From: Bacteriovorax sp. MedPE-SWde
GTDB taxonomy: Bacteria; Bdellovibrionota; Bacteriovoracia; Bacteriovoracales; Bacteriovoracaceae
NCBI GenBank assembly: GCA_001874305.1
Contig: MPCU01000004.1
Span: 62,001-126,000 of the forward strand
DNA: 64,000 nt
Direction: 5' to 3'
Below are positions 7,427 through 16,539 of the stretch, one piece after another. The notes under the pieces are model-generated. The model ran no database searches, had not been told where the DNA came from, and saw only the letters and a program-made list of their open reading frames with translations. How positions within the stretch are numbered: the first letter of the stretch is position 1; every line of letters starts with the position of its first letter. A program made the translations under genes and the position numbers.

Positions 7427-7915
7427 TTAAAACTTTGAGTCTTTAGAACCACAGTGAGGCATCATTGCGGCATATGGGTTATTTACCTTTGAATCCTTGG
7501 TAGAGTTTTGAACCCATTTCTTTTTAACCATAGGACATGAGTAAGCATTGTAGCCAGGTCCCACATTATAAGTATTAATGATATGAATTAATGCCATTGA
7601 TACTATGTGATAGTTCTGTCCATTTACATCCTTATCATTTGAGGACTTAATGTCAGAAAGCTTTCCTTGGGCAAACTTTAATAGCTTTGCTAGCTTCTTG
7701 TCAGATATATTAGAAATAGATTTATTAAGTTTCTTTGCAAATAACTCTACATTCTTTCCATCATAGCTAAAAAAAGATGCATGTAAATCTTCATTAACTT
7801 TTAATGCGTTTATAACTTCTGTTTGTACTTTCTTAGTTAGGGCCAATCTTTCTTTTGCAGCAGTGCTAAATACAAAGTTGCAAGCTAATATGACTAATAC
7901 TAAATACTTCTTCAT
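7427..7915 (-). CDS. Exported DUF3347-type protein of the metal-efflux operon
   Basis: A 162-residue protein with a signal peptide (cleavage near FSTAA, residue 20). The C-terminal half has the YSCPM...W.....NPY......CG pattern of DUF3347, a small helical domain often fused to CusB adaptors or encoded beside copper pumps. The cysteine pair (in YSCPM and PHCGS) with a methionine and a histidine could bind metal, by analogy only. Its ATG overlaps the cusA stop (ATGA, 4 bases), so translation is coupled and it is the last gene of the operon. Likely role: periplasmic metal handling for the pump. The family call rests on pattern recognition. Confidence 0.65.
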   Translation of the reverse strand: MKKYLVLVILACNFVFSTAAKERLALTKKVQTEVINALKVNEDLHASFFSYDGKNVELFAKKLNKSISNISDKKLAKLLKFAQGKLSDIKSSNDKDVNGQNYHIVSMALIHIINTYNVGPGYNAYSCPMVKKKWVQNSTKDSKVNNPYAAMMPHCGSKDSKF

Positions 7916-10900
7916 TTCTTCTCCTCAATTAAGTTATTTTCTGTTTCTATTTTTCTTTGTTCAAAAATACTAAATACAATTGGAACTATAAATAATGTAA
8001 CAAGCTCAACAAGCATCCCACCAAGTGTTGGAATGGCCATAGGCTTCATTACTTCACTACCAGTACTTGTCGCCCACATAATAGGAATTAGTGCTACCAC
8101 TGTCGTCGTAGTTGTCATAACAAGAGGTCTAATCCTCCTAGATCCAGCTTCAATAATACAGGCCTTAAGCCCTACCCAGTCCTTTGGTTTATGATTCTTT
8201 ATTGCTTGTTGAAGATAGGTCATCATAACAACGCCATCATCAACTGCGATACCAAAGAGAGCGATAAAACCAACCCAAACAGCAACCGATGTATTAAAAC
8301 CGCCAATCCATAAAAGAATTAATCCTCCAGAAAAAGCAATTGGAACAGCACTAAATATAATTGCTGCATTTCTTAAATTCTTTATTCCAAAGTAAATAAT
8401 TATCAAGTTAATTAAAAGGGCTATTGGCACAAGAATCTTCAAACGATTATTAGAGCGTACTTGATTTTCATACTGTCCGGCCCACACAATAGAATACCCT
8501 TTAGGCATTTCAACATTCTTTTCAATATGAGTCTTTGCTTCTTCTACAAAGCCTATAAGATCACGACCTGTAACATTTAAAAGAACAAGAGACCTCAGCA
8601 TACCATTTTCAGAGTGAATAGCAGCGGGTCCAGTTACGACTTTAATATCGGCCAATTGATTAATAGGTATATGGTGACCTAATGGACTTGGTACAAGAAC
8701 TTTCTTAAGTTCATCAATTCTATCTCTTAATTCTTTCTTGTAGCGAACACGGATTGGATATCTTTCTCGGCCATCATAGAACTGACCAATAGACATTCCA
8801 CCAACTGCAGTTTGAAGGATTTTATTAATCGTTCCAGTATTTATACCAAATCGACTCGCTGCTACCCTATCAATATCAAACTCAATATATGGCTTTCCAG
8901 TTATCTTTTCGGCATAGACGCCATAGGAGCCTTTAATCCTCTCAATTTCTTTACCTACTTTTGCAGCAAGACTTTCAAGAGTCTTTAAATCATCTCCAAA
9001 TATCTTTATACCAATTTGAGTCTTTATTCCCGTAGATATCATTGCGATTCTATTTTCAATAGGAAATAGCCAAGCATTTACCAGACCAGGTATTTGCATC
9101 TGTTGATCTAATTCATTCATAATGTCATATATTGATGTACCACTAGGCCATTGGTCTTCAGGAATAAGTTTAACCACAGTCTCAAACATCGCAACAGGAG
9201 CTGGATCAATTGCAGTATCAGCACGACCGAGCTTTCCAATTGCATCTTTAACCAGTGGATGCTCTTTTAATTTCTTGTCTGTATATGCCAGCAGCTCTCG
9301 CGATTTTGTCATACTTACATCAGGCGTGGTCACTGGCATATAGAGGATCTCACCTTCATTTAATGAAGGCATAAACTCTTTTCCAAGACGTGTAAACGCA
9401 AACGCACCGATTAAAAAGATAATAGTAGGAATTATAAAAAATACCTTTCTATTTTCTAGTAGCCAGCTAAGAACTGGACGATAACTATTAACAATAAAGC
9501 TACTAACTTTATTCTTTTCAATTGGTTTTAAGTTTCCTTTTAATAGAAATACCGATAAGGCAGGAAGAAGAACGATTGCCACAACAACTGAACCAAACAT
9601 AGCAAGCGTCTTCGCCCATGCTAGTGGACCAAATAGTTTACCTTCACTTCCTTCAAGTCCGAAAACAGGAAAGAATGTTACGATTGTTGTTGCTACTGCG
9701 GTTAAAATAGCTGGTCCGACTTCTCTAGCAGACTTTATAATGATATCTATTCTTTCCTTCTTAGAGGCCTCTGGCTTTTCTGCCAGGTGTGAATAGATAT
9801 TCTCAGTCATGATAATACCCATATCAACCATAGAACCAATTGCAATAACAAGACCTGATAGACTCATTACATTTGAATCAATTCCAAGTAGCTTCATAAG
9901 TATGAAACTTATCCCTACTCCGAAGGGTAATGTCAGGGATACAAGAATTGAAGATTGAAAGTGTAAGAGAAACAAGAGAATTACAATTACAGTAATAATA
10001 ATCTCTTCGCTCAGTGCCTTGTAGACTGTTCCAATCGTTCGCTCTATTACTTCTGTTCGATCATAAAATGGAACAAGAGATACGCCTTTTGGAAGCCCTC
10101 TCTTAACGACCTCTAATCTTTCTTTTACTTTATCAATGACTTGTTTTGGATTTTCTCCAAAGCGCATTGTAACAACACCACCAACGGCTTCAACTCCATT
10201 CTTATCAAGTGCTCCACGTCTAAATCCAGGGCCGTGACCAACTGATGCAACATCCTTAACTCTTATTGGGGATTTATTCTTAACAGCAATAACAACATTT
10301 TCAATATCAGAGAGAGACTTAAAAAATCCCTTTCCTCGAACAATATATTCACGATCACCATCTTCAACAACCTCTGCTCCAACATCAATATTACTATTTT
10401 GGATTGAGCTTATTAACTTGTTAAAGTGCACATCATAAGCAAATAGTTTATTAGGATCGACATCTATTTGGTACTCTTTTACAAACCCTCCAATCCCGGC
10501 AACCTCACTCACTCCCTCAACTCCTTGTAAGAGATAGCGTACATAGAAGTCTTGTATTGATCTAAGTTCAGCAAGGGACTTAGGTTTCTTGGCATCTTTA
10601 TCATTTTCCAACGTGTACCAAAAGACTTGCCCCAAACCTGTAGCATCAGGTCCCATTTGAGGTGACACACCAGATGGCAGCTCCCTTGAAGCAGTAGATA
10701 GTTTTTCGAGTACACGACTTCTACTCCAATAAAAGTCGATATCATCTTTAAAAATTACATAAATGATAGAGAAGCCAAATGCTGAGGTACCTCTAATATT
10801 TTTAACCCCCGGAATACCTTGTAACATGACACTTAAAGGATAAGTGACTTGCTCTTCAATATCTTTTGGGGAGCGACCTTCCCACTTGGTGAAAACTATC

Positions 10901-11040
10901 TGTTGATTTTCTCCAATATCAGGAATGGCATCAATCCTTGCTGTCTTTAAGCTAAAGACAGAAAGAAGTGCAATCAAAACAAAGGCCACAACGACTATGG
11001 CCCTCTTTCGAATAGAAAATTCTATTAAGTTCTGTATCAT
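7912..11040 (-). CDS. cusA: CusA-type heavy-metal RND efflux pump
   Basis: The inner-membrane proton-driven pump of a tripartite Cu(I)/Ag(I)-type exporter. At 1042 residues it has the normal RND length: one N-terminal helix, a large periplasmic loop, helices 2-6, a second loop and helices 7-12. Family sequences include GDREYIVRG, the helix-4 segment LVIAIGSMVDMGIIM with its charged residue, and GIAVDDGVVMM near the C-terminus, as in the HME subclass. Methionines in the second periplasmic half fit Cu/Ag export, but the exact metal is not proven by sequence. It overlaps cusB by 4 bases and the DUF3347 gene by 4 bases. Confidence 0.92.
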   Translation of the reverse strand: MIQNLIEFSIRKRAIVVVAFVLIALLSVFSLKTARIDAIPDIGENQQIVFTKWEGRSPKDIEEQVTYPLSVMLQGIPGVKNIRGTSAFGFSIIYVIFKDDIDFYWSRSRVLEKLSTASRELPSGVSPQMGPDATGLGQVFWYTLENDKDAKKPKSLAELRSIQDFYVRYLLQGVEGVSEVAGIGGFVKEYQIDVDPNKLFAYDVHFNKLISSIQNSNIDVGAEVVEDGDREYIVRGKGFFKSLSDIENVVIAVKNKSPIRVKDVASVGHGPGFRRGALDKNGVEAVGGVVTMRFGENPKQVIDKVKERLEVVKRGLPKGVSLVPFYDRTEVIERTIGTVYKALSEEIIITVIVILLFLLHFQSSILVSLTLPFGVGISFILMKLLGIDSNVMSLSGLVIAIGSMVDMGIIMTENIYSHLAEKPEASKKERIDIIIKSAREVGPAILTAVATTIVTFFPVFGLEGSEGKLFGPLAWAKTLAMFGSVVVAIVLLPALSVFLLKGNLKPIEKNKVSSFIVNSYRPVLSWLLENRKVFFIIPTIIFLIGAFAFTRLGKEFMPSLNEGEILYMPVTTPDVSMTKSRELLAYTDKKLKEHPLVKDAIGKLGRADTAIDPAPVAMFETVVKLIPEDQWPSGTSIYDIMNELDQQMQIPGLVNAWLFPIENRIAMISTGIKTQIGIKIFGDDLKTLESLAAKVGKEIERIKGSYGVYAEKITGKPYIEFDIDRVAASRFGINTGTINKILQTAVGGMSIGQFYDGRERYPIRVRYKKELRDRIDELKKVLVPSPLGHHIPINQLADIKVVTGPAAIHSENGMLRSLVLLNVTGRDLIGFVEEAKTHIEKNVEMPKGYSIVWAGQYENQVRSNNRLKILVPIALLINLIIIYFGIKNLRNAAIIFSAVPIAFSGGLILLWIGGFNTSVAVWVGFIALFGIAVDDGVVMMTYLQQAIKNHKPKDWVGLKACIIEAGSRRIRPLVMTTTTTVVALIPIMWATSTGSEVMKPMAIPTLGGMLVELVTLFIVPIVFSIFEQRKIETENNLIEEKK

Positions 11041-12401
11041 TTCTTCATATCCTCATAGCCACCAAAGAGTTGGGCCTGTGCATCTAGGAGAAAACTCCCC
11101 TCAATAACAACTTCTTCATTTTCCATAAGCCCATTTTTAACTTCAACATAACCCTCTGATTCATGTCCCGTGTGAATAGTTTTAGCTTGAAACTGTCTCT
11201 TATTTATCTTAACCCAGACAACCTTTCTCTTTCCCGTATCAATAATTGCAGTACGAGGAATAACCAAAGATGTTCCCTCTAAAGAGATATCAAGAGTCGC
11301 ATCCGCAATCATTCCTGGCTTTAGCTTTCCAGAGCTATTTTTAATAGTTGTGCGAATTTTCAATGTTCTAGACTTTACATTTAACACTGGATCAATAAAG
11401 TCGATCTCACCTTTAACAATTTCTCCAGGAAGTGATGTAAATTCCATAACTACACTTTGACCAAGACTAACGATGGCCGCATCCTGCTCATAAACATCCA
11501 TTTCAACCCAAATTTCAGAAAGGTCTGATAACTCAAAGAAGTTCTGTCCCTCTTTAAAATACTTTCCAACAGTGGCATTTCTCTTTCTTACGATACCTGT
11601 GGCCGATGAATAAATTGTTATACTTCTGGGTACCTCTGATTTCTTATACCAATCTTCGTATTGAGACTTTCTAATCCCCCAAAGTTTTAAACGCTGCTCA
11701 CTTTGTTTGAGCATATCTTTAAATTCTCTATTTTTAGATCTAGATGAACTCTTCTTAGCAATAAGGTACTCTTCTCCGGCCGTAATGAGCTTAGGACTAT
11801 AGAGTTCAACAACAGGATCACCAACCTTGATAAAACTACCTGTGGACTTGATATAGACCTTTTCCACCCTTCCGCCTATTCGGGCAGGGATACTGCTTTC
11901 TTTATCTTCAGATTGAAGGATTGTTCCTAGTAAACGAATCTTCTTATTCATTTTCATAGTCGTTACAGGAAAGAAGTCTGGTGTAAAGTGGCCCATCTGA
12001 GATTTTCTAAGCTTCACTTTACCAATGACTTTTCCTGCCTTATTTTCAAGGGGCTTTTTAATCATTGGGCTTCCATCAATTGGGCATACATCTTCTTTTT
12101 CACTAGTAACATCTGGAAAGTTAGAACATTGCCAGAGCGAGACAGAAGGAGCTATTTCAACATGACTTGACTCTTCAGAATCATCAACCTCGATCTTTGT
12201 CAGATTCATGTGACAGATAGGACATTTCCCAGCTTTATCTTCTTTAATTTGTGGATGCATAGAGCAAGTGTAATAGCTTTGAGTAGTGCTATGTGCATGT
12301 CCAGAATGCTTATCATTCTTATTTTCACTAAACTCACTCTTAGAGCAGGAAGTGAATGAAATAAGTAGTAAGCTTAAAAATAGAAGTGATATTTTACTCA
12401 T
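11037..12401 (-). CDS. cusB: CusB-type periplasmic adaptor with two N-terminal metal-binding modules
   Basis: Membrane fusion protein linking the RND pump to the outer-membrane channel. It begins with a lipobox (SFTSC, Cys19), then a His-rich stretch (HSGHAH, 32-37), then a heavy-metal-binding module (YTCSMHP...CPICHMNL, ligands Cys46, Met48, His49, Cys60, Cys63, Met65). A second, weaker copy follows (Cys92, Cys106). The remainder is the barrel-sandwich/hairpin/beta-barrel architecture of adaptors (for example RIGGRVEKVYIKSTG, about 165-180). At 454 residues it is slightly longer than E. coli CusB because of the extra metal modules. It overlaps cusC by 8 bases and cusA by 4. Confidence 0.9.
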   Translation of the reverse strand: MSKISLLFLSLLLISFTSCSKSEFSENKNDKHSGHAHSTTQSYYTCSMHPQIKEDKAGKCPICHMNLTKIEVDDSEESSHVEIAPSVSLWQCSNFPDVTSEKEDVCPIDGSPMIKKPLENKAGKVIGKVKLRKSQMGHFTPDFFPVTTMKMNKKIRLLGTILQSEDKESSIPARIGGRVEKVYIKSTGSFIKVGDPVVELYSPKLITAGEEYLIAKKSSSRSKNREFKDMLKQSEQRLKLWGIRKSQYEDWYKKSEVPRSITIYSSATGIVRKRNATVGKYFKEGQNFFELSDLSEIWVEMDVYEQDAAIVSLGQSVVMEFTSLPGEIVKGEIDFIDPVLNVKSRTLKIRTTIKNSSGKLKPGMIADATLDISLEGTSLVIPRTAIIDTGKRKVVWVKINKRQFQAKTIHTGHESEGYVEVKNGLMENEEVVIEGSFLLDAQAQLFGGYEDMKK

Positions 12402-13611
12402 AGAGAGATTCTCCTAAAATATATCTCAGTGTAACTTTCTTTATGTCTCGTTTTGCAACAAGCATAACTTTCTTCATTAATATTTTTTGTAATTTTAATT
12501 CTGACTGTAGTAATTCAACATAACTTGAATTCCCCAAACTATATGACTTTGCAGTAATCTTTCGAGAGTTCTTTGCAAACTTAATAGTCTTCTTTGTTAA
12601 GATGGAAACTTCCCCACTAACTTTTTTAATTTCCTTCTCTAATATTTTACTATCTCGATCCTTACTTCGTTTGTAATTTTCTAACTCCTTTTTAGCACTG
12701 TACTTTTCATTAACAGCTTTTCCATAAACAGAATACTTCTTGCCCGAAAATGGTAGAGGAAAACTAATAGAGGCACCTACAAAATCTCCTCTATTGTCAA
12801 TATTAGATCTCTTTGTATAGCCTAGCCCTACTGTTACATCGGGAAGAAAGTTCTGTTTAGATGCCGTAAGTCCATAGCTCTTAGAATTAAGTTTAGATTT
12901 TAAAGAAAGCTCCTTAAAGTCTTTAATCTTACTAGCCTTTGTGGAAAGGACCTTCCAAGGAACACTATTATATTTAAACTTATCTCCACCTTTAGCAACG
13001 ACAAGGTAGTTTAAGCGATCTTCTAATTGTGATAATTCATAAGACTTATTACTCAGTTGAACTTCAAGTTCAGATTTACGAATTTGGATATCAAGTAATG
13101 CTTGTTGTGAAGTACGGCCATTCGCATAGAGCTTCTTACTTACTTTTAGAATTTTCTTTATCCAACTATAATTCTCTTCAAGAATAATCTTTTCTGAGAC
13201 CATCTTCCTTCTTAAGATTACAACTTCCCACAGTCCTTTAACTAAAGAGAGCTCTTTATTTTTAGCATCATAGTTTAGAGAGTTAGCAAGTGAAGTCATG
13301 GCATTTTGAATATTTCCATATTTCGTGGACAATGCTATTTTTTGAGAAACTCCAAACTCTAGTCCTGTCATTGGCGTCTCATTATCCTTTAATGAGTCCT
13401 TCGGATAGTTCTTTGCCGAAACCTTAAACATTGGGTCTCCCCAACTTCCTTTCTCTCCAGCCCCTTCTCTAACAGACAATGAGCTCTTTTCTATTCTTTG
13501 GACACTTTCATGAGTACTCAGCTTCTTTGCTGCTTCAATAAAGCTAATCGCAAATACTTGCTGTATATTTAGTAATGAAATAAATAGTAGTACAGTATTA
13601 CTTAGATTCAT
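12394..13611 (-). CDS. Outer-membrane efflux protein (TolC/CusC family)
   Basis: The outer-membrane exit duct of the metal exporter. The 405-residue protein has a signal peptide (to about residue 21) and two repeats rich in long amphipathic helices, the outer-membrane efflux protein pattern. The segment YGLTASKQNFLPDVTVGLGY is the typical strand leading into the second repeat. No lipobox is present, unlike E. coli CusC. It overlaps the upstream haem-binding-domain gene by 14 bases and the adaptor by 8, so it is tightly co-translated. Confidence 0.85.
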   Translation of the reverse strand: MNLSNTVLLFISLLNIQQVFAISFIEAAKKLSTHESVQRIEKSSLSVREGAGEKGSWGDPMFKVSAKNYPKDSLKDNETPMTGLEFGVSQKIALSTKYGNIQNAMTSLANSLNYDAKNKELSLVKGLWEVVILRRKMVSEKIILEENYSWIKKILKVSKKLYANGRTSQQALLDIQIRKSELEVQLSNKSYELSQLEDRLNYLVVAKGGDKFKYNSVPWKVLSTKASKIKDFKELSLKSKLNSKSYGLTASKQNFLPDVTVGLGYTKRSNIDNRGDFVGASISFPLPFSGKKYSVYGKAVNEKYSAKKELENYKRSKDRDSKILEKEIKKVSGEVSILTKKTIKFAKNSRKITAKSYSLGNSSYVELLQSELKLQKILMKKVMLVAKRDIKKVTLRYILGESLYE

Positions 13612-14089
13612 TTTCCAACTTCCTCATAGAACTATCAACCCATCGTATAATTGAATCGACTTCTGACGATTTTAATTTTTTACCAATATGCATAATTCTA
13701 TATCGAAGAGGAGGCATCCCTCCACTAATTACTGAGTTTTTAATAGACTTTAAATCGTTAATAGGACTTTCATGACTCAAGAAAGGAAAGTCTTGTGTGA
13801 AATCTAGATGTTTCTTAGCTTCAATAATATCACTATTAATTATCTTCTTCACAACTGGAAGCTCATAGTACCAAGGGTAATTTACCTGTGCGCTATGACA
13901 GTCAAAACATGACTTTTTAAATATAGACTTAACTGTAGAAAGGTATTCAGAGTTAATCTCTAATAAGACAGACTTTCTTATTTCTTTCTTCTCTACGATC
14001 TTACTTTCTTTAGAGTGATCAATCCCACCGTGACCAAAGGCCAGCGGAACGATTATAAATGTAATTAATAAGTATTTTAATTTAGTCAT
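13598..14089 (-). CDS. Exported haem-binding-domain protein (one CxxCH)
   Basis: First gene of the metal-efflux operon. I choose the ATG at 14089 (163 residues) rather than the one at 14101: it has GGGA/GGGAA upstream at normal spacing, whereas the first ATG abuts AGGGA, and it fits the promoter at 14113-14140. After a signal peptide (to about FGHGG) comes FKKSCFDCHS with the pattern PWYYE...A..HLDF, which matches the Haem_bd domain, a short cytochrome-like module with one CxxCH. Likely role: periplasmic haem or redox protein linked to copper stress (Cu(I)/Cu(II) chemistry), inferred from its place at the head of the operon. Confidence 0.75.
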   Translation of the reverse strand: MTKLKYLLITFIIVPLAFGHGGIDHSKESKIVEKKEIRKSVLLEINSEYLSTVKSIFKKSCFDCHSAQVNYPWYYELPVVKKIINSDIIEAKKHLDFTQDFPFLSHESPINDLKSIKNSVISGGMPPLRYRIMHIGKKLKSSEVDSIIRWVDSSMRKLENESK

Positions 14090-14112
14090 AATTTTTCCCA
14101 TTCCCTATGTAA

Positions 14113-14140
14113 TACGAGAGTAAATTGTTATATGTGACAA
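14113..14140 (-). promoter_or_regulatory. Predicted ECF-sigma promoter of the metal-efflux operon
   Basis: On the minus strand TTGTCACA (14140-14133) and CGTA (14116-14113) are 16 bases apart. The same pair with the same spacing occurs before the divergent sigma gene. A CGT-type -10 and a TGTCA-type -35 are characteristic of ECF promoters. The expected start is near 14106, leaving about 17 bases of leader before the ATG at 14089. Confidence 0.7.
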
Positions 14141-14160
14141 TTTTTATAAAGTTCTCTATA

Positions 14161-14174
14161 TAATCTCGAGATTA
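14161..14174. promoter_or_regulatory. 14-bp perfect palindrome, possible operator
   Basis: TAATCTCGAGATTA reads the same on both strands and lies between the two divergent ECF promoters, a reasonable place for a dimeric regulator. No regulator can be named. Confidence 0.4.
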
Positions 14175-14193
14175 ATTGAAGTATCCTATTACT

Positions 14194-14205
14194 GTCGTTA
14201 ACGAC
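14194..14205. promoter_or_regulatory. 12-bp perfect palindrome, possible operator
   Basis: GTCGTTAACGAC is a perfect palindrome whose flanks extend the symmetry imperfectly (TACT on the left, AGTA after two extra bases on the right). It lies about mid-way between the two ECF-type promoters. Confidence 0.4.
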
Positions 14206-14242
14206 TTAGTAATATTAACAAGTTACAGTTTTTATTAACTTT

Positions 14243-14270
14243 TTGTCACAAATCGGATTTGATATTCGTA
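14243..14270 (+). promoter_or_regulatory. Predicted autoregulatory ECF promoter of the sigma gene
   Basis: TTGTCACA (14243-14250), 16 bases, then CGTA (14267-14270), the same arrangement as in front of the divergent efflux operon. The predicted start falls near 14277, only about 9 bases before the ATG at 14286, so the leader would be very short and would cut into the AGGAG at 14274-14278. Confidence 0.6.
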
Positions 14271-14285: not shown

Positions 14286-14816
14286 ATGAATCCATTCTCC
14301 CACTTAGAGGATGAGAAACTCATGAAGTTATACCAAGAAGATGAATTCTTGGCCTTTGAAGTTCTTTATGAAAGACATAGAGATCGTGTGTACTCCTATA
14401 TCCAAAAGCGATTGCACAAGCAAAACGATATCGATGAAGTATTTCAAAATGTCTTTCTTAAGTTCCATCGAAGTAAGAACCTCTACAATGATAAGTACCT
14501 TGTAGTTCAATGGGTATATACGATTACAAGAAGTGAGTTATTAGACTTTTGTAAAAAGAAGAAACTTGAGGTTGTTGAGTTTGATGATGCTCAACATGGA
14601 ACACAGCAAGAACAAAATGATAATGAGCTAGACTTGAGCGAATATAAGAATCTCACTGAAAAAGAGAGAGATGTTTTAAAGCGAAAGTTCTACTCAGATG
14701 AAGACTACGAAGAGATATCTAAGGCACTAGAAACATCTCAGGCAAATGCCAGAAAGATTGTTTCAAGAGCTCTTAATAAGATAAGAAAGAAACTAATAGG
14801 AGGAAGTCATGAGTAA
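14286..14816 (+). CDS. ECF-family RNA polymerase sigma factor
   Basis: A 176-residue sigma factor with region 2 (LAFEVLYERHRDRVYSYIQ through DEVFQNVFLKFHR and a WVYTITR segment) and region 4 (LTEKERDVLKRKF, then a helix-turn-helix with SQANARKIVSRAL), and no region 3: the ECF plan. I start it at the ATG at 14286, which has AGGAG 7 bases upstream, rather than at a TTG further up. It overlaps the following membrane-protein gene by 8 bases, the usual sigma/anti-sigma arrangement. It is divergent from the metal-efflux operon and shares a promoter motif with it, so I infer that it activates itself and that operon. Confidence 0.9.
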   Translation: MNPFSHLEDEKLMKLYQEDEFLAFEVLYERHRDRVYSYIQKRLHKQNDIDEVFQNVFLKFHRSKNLYNDKYLVVQWVYTITRSELLDFCKKKKLEVVEFDDAQHGTQQEQNDNELDLSEYKNLTEKERDVLKRKFYSDEDYEEISKALETSQANARKIVSRALNKIRKKLIGGSHE

Positions 14817-15330
14817 TAAGCAAGACTTCAAAGATTTTCTAAGGACAAATAAATCTTCACCAAGTGAAGATACGTCTAAGAATATCCTAAACTCTATTAG
14901 AAGAGAGATGATTCCAAACAAGGGAATAGTCTTTACAAAGCTTATCCTAGTTCAGGCATTCATTGGTGCTATCACTATGATCTTTTGTCCACAGTTTAGC
15001 ATGAGTCTAACTAGCAATGACGAGCTCTACCATTTCTTTCATAGAACCTTTGGTCATTATGGATGCATGATGGTTTGTGGAAGTATATTTATTGGAAGTG
15101 GTGCCCTATTCTCCTCAACAATTCTGAATTGGGCCGAAATACGTCTTTTAAAAGAATCTAAACTTCTAAGTTACTTTGGACTAAGCGGTCTTTTTGCACT
15201 TTCATTTTTATTTGTTGGTGCACAAGTCTATCTTGACGTTGCAATTGCTTGGATGATTGGTGCGACACTAAGCGGATCTGTCTTCTTTCAAGTTTCAACA
15301 ATTCTCAAGAAGAAAATTCAGCTTTCATGA
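14809..15330 (+). CDS. Membrane protein, probable anti-sigma factor
   Basis: A 173-residue protein with a cytoplasmic N-terminus of about 40 residues (SNKQDFKDFLRTNK...) and about four membrane helices. Position (8-base overlap with the ECF sigma gene) and topology suggest an anti-sigma factor. The zinc-binding HxxxCxxC motif of common anti-sigmas is absent from the N-terminus. Instead Cys, His and Met cluster at the membrane face: Cys60, then His75, His78, His83, Cys86, Met87, Met88 and Cys90. With a copper pump across the intergenic region, these are plausible metal-sensing ligands, which is inference. It converges with the antiporter gene, overlapping by 6 bases. Confidence 0.6.
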   Translation: MSNKQDFKDFLRTNKSSPSEDTSKNILNSIRREMIPNKGIVFTKLILVQAFIGAITMIFCPQFSMSLTSNDELYHFFHRTFGHYGCMMVCGSIFIGSGALFSSTILNWAEIRLLKESKLLSYFGLSGLFALSFLFVGAQVYLDVAIAWMIGATLSGSVFFQVSTILKKKIQLS

Positions 15331-16539
15331 TGCGTCTTTAATCGCTGAAAACTCTTCATCACTCTTTTCTTCAATGGCCGGAACTTTGACATTTAAGTAA
15401 TCAACTATCTTAGTAAATAATGGTGAGAGAAACAAGCTCAGCGTAATAGAGCTAATAAGTAGATTAGAAAATTCAGTCGCAATAATCGAATGGCTTACCG
15501 CTGTTGATATAATGAGAAGTCCAAACTCTCCCCCCTGTCCAAGAAGAATTCCCATCTTCATACCTGTAGACCATCTCCCTGTTTTGATTCTACCAATGAC
15601 CATTAGAATTAAAAACTTCACTGAAGTAAATAAGAGAGTCAACATAACAACTGTATACACATTATTCTTAAAATAATCTGTATCTATACTTAGACCAAAG
15701 GCCATGAAGAAAACCCCCATGAGCATTGACTTAAGAGGTACAGAGAAGGTGGAGATATCATGGCGGAGTTTAGAGTTAGTTAGAAATATTCCGGCCATGA
15801 AAGAGCCTAACGCCTTGGACAACCCTACAAACTCCATAAGAAGAGCAGAGCCTATAATCATCATCAGGCAACAACTAATGAATATCTCGCGACTTTGAGA
15901 TTTATATATCCAAGAGATTGCTGGAATTAGAGCAAACATCCCAAAGAGTAATGCCGCTAAAGTAATCTGTATATTTATAAAGAGCCCTCTATAATCGAAT
16001 CCAGATGTAATTTGAGAGGACTCAGCAAAGAAAGGTAGTACTGTTAGAATTGGAATGATTATTAAATCTTGAAATAAGAGAATTGAAAAACTTGATTGTC
16101 CATAACTCTTTGTTAATTGATCTGACTCCTTTAGGTAATAAAGAGCAAAGGCGGTGGAAGATAGAGAAAGCGAGCTACCAGCGACAATCGCCATTGTTGT
16201 ATCAACACCAAAGAAAGTTAAGATATAAGAGATAAGAGCTGTTGTGACAAAGAACTGAGGAATCCCCTCTTTAAAGATAATTCCCTTTAATTTTGAAAGA
16301 CGGGATGGACTAAGTTCAAGACCAATTACAAAGAGCAACATAATGATCCCAAAGTCACTTATTTGCTTTATATCTTCAGAGTGATCAAGAAGGCCTATTC
16401 CTGCAGGGCCTAGAATTAGTCCCGAACAAATATAGCCAAGAATGGCGCCTAGTCCCAGCGCCTTAAAAAGGGGCACTAATATGACAGTCGCCCCAAGGTA
16501 ATAAAAAATATCAAGAAGTATACTTTCTTCAAACATCAT
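15325..16539 (-). CDS. Kef/CPA2-type cation:proton antiporter membrane domain
   Basis: A 404-residue, roughly 12-helix protein of the monovalent cation:proton antiporter-2 family. Signature stretches include LGAILGYICSGLILGPAGIG at the N-terminus (residues 28-47), LLFVIGLELSPSRL and GILLGQGGEFG. The cytosolic nucleotide-binding RCK/TrkA-N domain of full-length KefB/KefC (about 600 residues) is missing, so this is the short form. Likely role: K+ or Na+ efflux in exchange for protons. It lies 58 bases after csoR on the same strand and may be read through from the copper operon, but nothing links it to copper. Confidence 0.85.
   Translation of the reverse strand: MMFEESILLDIFYYLGATVILVPLFKALGLGAILGYICSGLILGPAGIGLLDHSEDIKQISDFGIIMLLFVIGLELSPSRLSKLKGIIFKEGIPQFFVTTALISYILTFFGVDTTMAIVAGSSLSLSSTAFALYYLKESDQLTKSYGQSSFSILLFQDLIIIPILTVLPFFAESSQITSGFDYRGLFINIQITLAALLFGMFALIPAISWIYKSQSREIFISCCLMMIIGSALLMEFVGLSKALGSFMAGIFLTNSKLRHDISTFSVPLKSMLMGVFFMAFGLSIDTDYFKNNVYTVVMLTLLFTSVKFLILMVIGRIKTGRWSTGMKMGILLGQGGEFGLLIISTAVSHSIIATEFSNLLISSITLSLFLSPLFTKIVDYLNVKVPAIEEKSDEEFSAIKDAS

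Follow-up and report, generated by a model that had tools for sequence, protein, structure and literature searches.

A conserved promoter pair predicts an ECF sigma factor/membrane partner switch for copper efflux in Bacteriovorax and its phylum

The genome of Bacteriovorax sp. MedPE-SWde (GCA_001874305.1), a marine bacterium of predatory type, contains an ECF sigma factor gene and a haem-binding/CusCBA efflux operon that diverge from a short gap, in which one bipartite motif occurs twice, once ahead of each transcript. We read this arrangement with high confidence as an autoregulated ECF sigma factor/membrane anti-sigma factor switch for copper (or silver) efflux, whose two back-to-back promoters would both be read by this sigma factor. 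The analysis started from a 64-kb window (contig MPCU01000004.1, positions 62,001-126,000, forward strand; window coordinates are used throughout) and was extended to the whole assembly, the order and the phylum. The features of the locus are as follows.

14243-14270, + strand: predicted sigma gene promoter, autoregulatory (-35 TTGTCACA at 14243-14250, spacer of 16 nt, -10 CGTA at 14267-14270)
14113-14140, - strand: predicted divergent target promoter, that of the haem-binding/cus operon (-35 at 14140-14133, -10 at 14116-14113)
14286-14816, + strand: ECF sigma factor, start ATG 14286, 176 aa (comprises only regions 2 and 4; C-terminal extension absent)
14809-15330, + strand: probable membrane anti-sigma factor, the partner (173 aa; gene overlaps the sigma gene's 3' end)
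13598-14101, - strand: secreted protein with a haem-binding domain (PF14376), encoded first in the target operon (possible alternative start at the second ATG, 14089)
12394-13611, - strand: CusC-type outer-membrane efflux protein (PF02321)
11037-12401, - strand: CusB-type periplasmic adaptor with a heavy-metal-binding domain (PF16576, PF19335)
7912-11040, - strand: CusA-type RND pump (M568, M618 and M667 correspond to M573, M623 and M672 of E. coli CusA)
7427-7915, - strand: small secreted protein, last gene of the operon (match to the LIC13259/LIC11441 family below cut-off)

The same motif precedes both divergent transcripts

The original prediction described two copies of TTGTCACA-N16-CGTA, at 14140-14113 (- strand) and 14243-14270 (+ strand). 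Coordinates, blocks and the 16-nt spacer are all confirmed, and these two copies are, as claimed, the only exact matches in the window. The pattern itself holds except for its first T, which proves to be a preference only in a consensus built from 76 instances. The refined consensus is t-TGTCACAAA-N13-T-CGTA; the -10 block reads TCGTA in most relatives, and CGTA usually lies 10-40 nt ahead of the start codon. Base composition predicts about 2e-5 exact matches in the 184-nt gap between the sigma gene and the cus operon. A search of the gap for a sigma-70 promoter found none; the two weak matches obtained fall within the haem-binding gene or at its start.

A genome-wide search with the pattern, which the original prediction had suggested, was carried out by pattern matching and returned three exact matches in the 3.76-Mb assembly, including the promoter pair, against about 0.5 expected from base composition. 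We rejected the third match (G000:C6:15962-15989, - strand) as a promoter, as it lies antisense within a potassium-channel-like ORF and is probably due to chance. Matches with one mismatch are not enriched in this genome (7 forward versus 6 for the reversed control) and give no grounds for proposing a wider regulon; the regulon here appears to consist of only the sigma transcript and the haem-binding/cus transcript.

A minimal sigma factor is encoded with a cysteine-containing membrane protein

The sigma protein scores above the cut-offs for PF04542, PF04545 and TIGR02937 and ends just after region 4, lacking both the large extension of the ECF41 type and the C-terminal Cys-rich domain of the CorE type. 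ATG 14286 is the sensible start codon, 15 nt past CGTA; the start given in the ORF list, TTG 14259, falls within the promoter and was rejected. Contig searches with the sigma protein yielded just two matches, a close relative and a doubtful one from Bacteroidales. The sigma protein of Bacteriovorax sp. DB6_IX is 70% identical, and in that genome both motif copies are exact, the spacers and flanks are changed, and the haem-binding gene is absent.

The AlphaFold2 model of the partner (mean pLDDT 85.7) has short N-terminal helices at residues 3-15 and 20-34, followed by four long helical stretches that are probable membrane helices. Among 33 homologues, C60, C86 and C90 are invariant and H75 is nearly so. 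C60 ends membrane helix 1, H75 lies near the start of helix 2, and C86 and C90 fall within helix 2; given a cytoplasmic N-terminus, the model would place C60 and H75 on the periplasmic side. The partner belongs to no Pfam or NCBIfam family, its few weak Pfam matches being unrelated membrane families, and none of the 33 scanned members of its family matches the Pfam DUF1109/NrsF family at E <= 1. Searches of PDB sequences and folds returned nothing convincing and no similar solved fold, and plasmid records hold no relatives of the partner.

The sequence and fold searches gave no match that supports an anti-sigma role. The partner nevertheless shows the features of the membrane anti-sigma class, as it adjoins the sigma gene, is membrane-anchored and has a short cytoplasmic N-terminus; it is also conserved together with the sigma factor across the phylum. 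It is likely an anti-sigma factor, an activity that we infer from gene position, size and topology. The two genes do not always remain adjacent. In three genomes (G003, G047 and G052; loci L072, L073 and L084), the partner gene stands directly behind the motif; the sigma gene lies elsewhere in G003 and G047 and was not found in G052, whose assembly is 73% complete. Sigma and partner genes can therefore be unlinked, and both still seem to belong to the circuit.

The divergent operon encodes a copper/silver-type pump

When CusA was aligned to 3t51, all three methionines (M568, M618 and M667) proved to be kept. Their E. coli counterparts, M573, M623 and M672, form the three-methionine Cu(I)/Ag(I) site, and the conserved Met triad marks the predicted pump as one of the copper/silver type. 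The product of the operon's last gene is presumably DUF3347-like; in some relatives, a DUF3347-like gene alone is the divergent target of the motif.

The motif is conserved at the sigma/partner pair across the phylum

The motif lies just upstream of the sigma/partner pair at 29 of 40 loci in the order and at 21 of 39 elsewhere in the phylum, and the reversed pattern at none. The phylum loci were chosen by the partner protein alone, which was found in 190 of 369 genomes at E <= 1e-10. At the 39 loci outside the order, the 21 are exact motifs aimed at the sigma gene from within 150 nt (reversed motif, 0), and by inspection about nine further loci are off by one base or one spacer unit. The motif at the sigma gene usually comes with a second copy facing outward, at a Cus-type operon or at a gene for a haem-binding-domain or DUF3347-like protein.

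Across 129 genomes of the order, TGTCACAAA-N13-TCGTA has 58 matches versus 5 for the reversed control. The 54 distinct matches in the order's loci lie upstream of 20 sigma, 10 cusC, 9 haem-binding, 5 DUF3347-like, 3 partner and 1 csoR genes (48/54), and 6 other genes; judging from the appearance of their sequences, some of these encode an outer-membrane-efflux-like protein and secreted proteins rich in Cys/His. With spacers of 8-24 nt allowed, the spacer is 16 nt in 50 of 54 TGTCACA/CGTA pairings. One genome (G107) has a 15-nt spacer in both promoters, as expected if the same sigma factor reads both. Paired -35 blocks stand anywhere from 1 to 185 nt apart, which argues against a single joint operator.

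Some sigma homologues lack the motif, namely those at L090, L091, L116 and L117 and those of a lineage with more distant sigma/partner pairs (L177-L180, L188). This lineage has no CGTA-type promoters; at L177 and L178, TGTCACA-N16-CCTA faces away from the sigma gene, CCTA being perhaps a diverged -10 block. At L158, L159 and L162, TTGTA replaces TCGTA in the sigma promoter, and the divergent promoter keeps TCGTA. Only 1-4 nt separate the -35 blocks at L115, L169 and L172. Both promoters could hardly be occupied simultaneously at such a distance, and close-set promoters of this sort may create mutual exclusion.

The motif at cus operons goes with the sigma/partner pair

Where cusCBA has been separated from the sigma gene, the motif is still found at the pump. 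In three genomes (G045, G046 and G123), cusCBA lies far from the sigma gene with the motif directly ahead of it (L082, L083 and L076), and in G050 the cus operon, 1.7 kb away, has its own copy (L112). The motif is upstream of the cus operon at 28 of 28 loci in relatives that have the sigma/partner pair, versus 0 of 10 in nine relatives without a detected partner protein, whose CusA proteins are 61-81% identical. Six of the 28 loci were found via the motif (L072, L073, L076, L082, L083 and L084) and the other 22 were chosen by the sigma or the partner protein; when the six are set aside, the motif is present at 22 of 22. Fisher's exact test gives p = 2e-9 for 28/28 versus 0/10, a value that overstates the evidence because the loci are phylogenetically related and their counts are not independent, but the direction of the contrast is unambiguous. 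In several sigma-less relatives, for example at L219 and L225 (G048 and G035), cusCBA lies directly after or near csoR and lacks the motif, much as though its regulation had passed to CsoR.

Since the motif pair recurs in much of the phylum and is missing at the pump where there is no sigma factor, it is very likely that the sigma factor activates the pump as well as its own gene. The identity of the promoter and its target is strongly supported at the level of sequence. The original prediction had proposed an ECF target promoter, autoregulation of the sigma gene and a regulon that includes the divergent copper efflux operon. This reading is supported by the phylum-wide conservation of the motif at the sigma/partner pair, by its presence at relocated cusCBA operons and by its absence from cusCBA where the pair is absent; for copper, the Met triad of CusA adds independent evidence.

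Alternative explanations

The AT-rich composition of the gap is all that speaks for a chance duplication, which we regard as vanishingly improbable: 2e-5 copies are expected per gap, and conservation across the phylum refutes it. The blocks might also form the operator of a separate DNA-binding regulator, such as a dimer recognising TGTGACA/TGTCACA. TGTCACA does resemble CRP-type operator half-sites, and in some relatives (L169, L172) the abutting -35 blocks form a palindrome. An operator is nonetheless very unlikely, as the motif is asymmetric, bipartite and aimed at the gene with strict 16-nt spacing, CGTA usually stands 10-40 nt from the start codon, the distance between paired copies is variable, and the motif matches the experimentally shown promoter of an ECF sigma factor, ECF41.

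A different question is whether the same promoter pair, read by the same sigma factor, answers to copper. The signal could be envelope, redox or haem-related stress, with cus as one of several responses. Haem-binding-domain and DUF3347-like genes are common targets, in some genomes with no pump alongside (L100, L101, L104 and L110), and the Caulobacter SigF-NrsF system, with a Cys-containing membrane anti-sigma factor, responds to chromium and cadmium (PMC3511200). We consider a non-copper signal unlikely, although not negligibly so. The Met triad marks the pump as Cu/Ag-type, the pump-less sigma loci of G045, G046 and G123 are accompanied by motif-bearing cusCBA operons elsewhere in these genomes (L082, L083 and L076), and copZ, copA and csoR flank the locus in many relatives.

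Discussion

In the switch that we favour, the motifs would serve as -35 and -10 elements for a pair of back-to-back promoters, and RNA polymerase bearing the product of the sigma gene (14286-14816) would read both. When there is no signal, the short N-terminal helices of the partner would tether the sigma factor to the inner membrane. An excess of copper (or silver) in the periplasm would be sensed, probably via the invariant cysteines and the conserved histidine near the periplasmic side, and the sigma factor would be freed. The freed sigma factor would transcribe its own operon, providing amplification together with negative feedback through the anti-sigma factor, and also the divergent haem-binding/CusCBA operon, by which Cu(I)/Ag(I) would be pumped from the periplasm. 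Copper as the signal and the mechanism of sigma release are the parts of this scheme that we infer.

Several known systems share parts of this design. The ECF41 promoter has been shown experimentally to be TGTCACA-N16-CGTC, with the same -35 block and the same 16-nt spacing as here but CGTC in place of CGTA at -10, and its regulon is likewise confined to neighbouring genes (PMC3426412). ECF41 factors have a large C-terminal extension and no anti-sigma gene, whereas the present sigma factor lacks the extension and is encoded with a membrane partner. The present switch would operate like SigF-NrsF of Caulobacter crescentus, a two-gene operon in which a minimal ECF sigma gene precedes the gene for a negative regulator, a multi-TM protein of the inner membrane whose N-terminus is short and whose cysteines are conserved; this system governs a small heavy-metal regulon (PMC3511200). 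NrsF, however, is a DUF1109 protein with six TM helices and two conserved cysteines, compared with four probable TM helices and three invariant cysteines in the partner, and the target here is CusCBA. Myxococcus xanthus CorE is a copper-dependent ECF sigma factor that controls copper detoxification genes (PMC10141476), but it has no anti-sigma factor and senses copper itself by the C-terminal Cys-rich domain that is absent from the present sigma factor. Acinetobacter SigAb is a copper-responsive, autoregulated ECF sigma factor with a co-encoded small membrane anti-sigma factor, AabA; at 107 aa, AabA is much smaller than the partner, it is encoded with the periplasmic AabB, and the metal-resistance genes are indirect targets (PMC12153292). 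Our literature search found no paper describing a sigma/partner copper system in these bacteria. We therefore rate it as a sigma/anti-sigma copper switch, which is a known kind; what is new is that its probable anti-sigma factor comes from an unclassified family and that its promoter is found phylum-wide.

In E. coli, CusRS-CusCFBA provides regulated tripartite efflux of periplasmic Cu(I)/Ag(I) alongside a cytoplasmic sensor of copper that serves the P-type ATPase, and CueR and CusRS form separate cytoplasmic and periplasmic circuits. The efflux would be alike in the two organisms, and its control differs, resting on a two-component system in E. coli and on a predicted ECF sigma/anti-sigma pair here. 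A near-perfect palindrome typical of CsoR operators, ATACCCCTAGGGGGTAT, lies at 19281-19265 (- strand) upstream of the copZ start codon (ATG 19255) and ahead of copZ-copA-csoR, which suggests a separate cytoplasmic copper circuit. As copZ-copA-csoR has its own CsoR-type palindrome, the cytoplasmic and the periplasmic pool of copper probably each have a circuit of their own. The gap from the sigma operon to csoR holds what appears from its sequence to be a KefB-like cation/proton antiporter gene (15325-16539, - strand), which is also present in Bacteriovorax DB6_IX (L008) and unmatched in the other order-level loci.

A plausible but still tentative extension is that the partner is the founder of an undescribed, phylum-wide anti-sigma family that binds periplasmic copper directly, via the invariant cysteines and the conserved histidine, which lie in the membrane or close to it, and thereby replaces CusRS-type two-component sensing of periplasmic copper in the phylum. 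The partner family, which has no Pfam entry, is a likely metal sensor. The TGTCACA -35 block, described as specific to ECF41, very probably also serves a sigma family whose architecture differs. With the motif, metal-resistance genes can be located in those members of the phylum that are unannotated. For the phylum as a whole, many of whose members are predators, one sigma factor, one membrane partner and one promoter together offer a defined, testable metal-response regulon.
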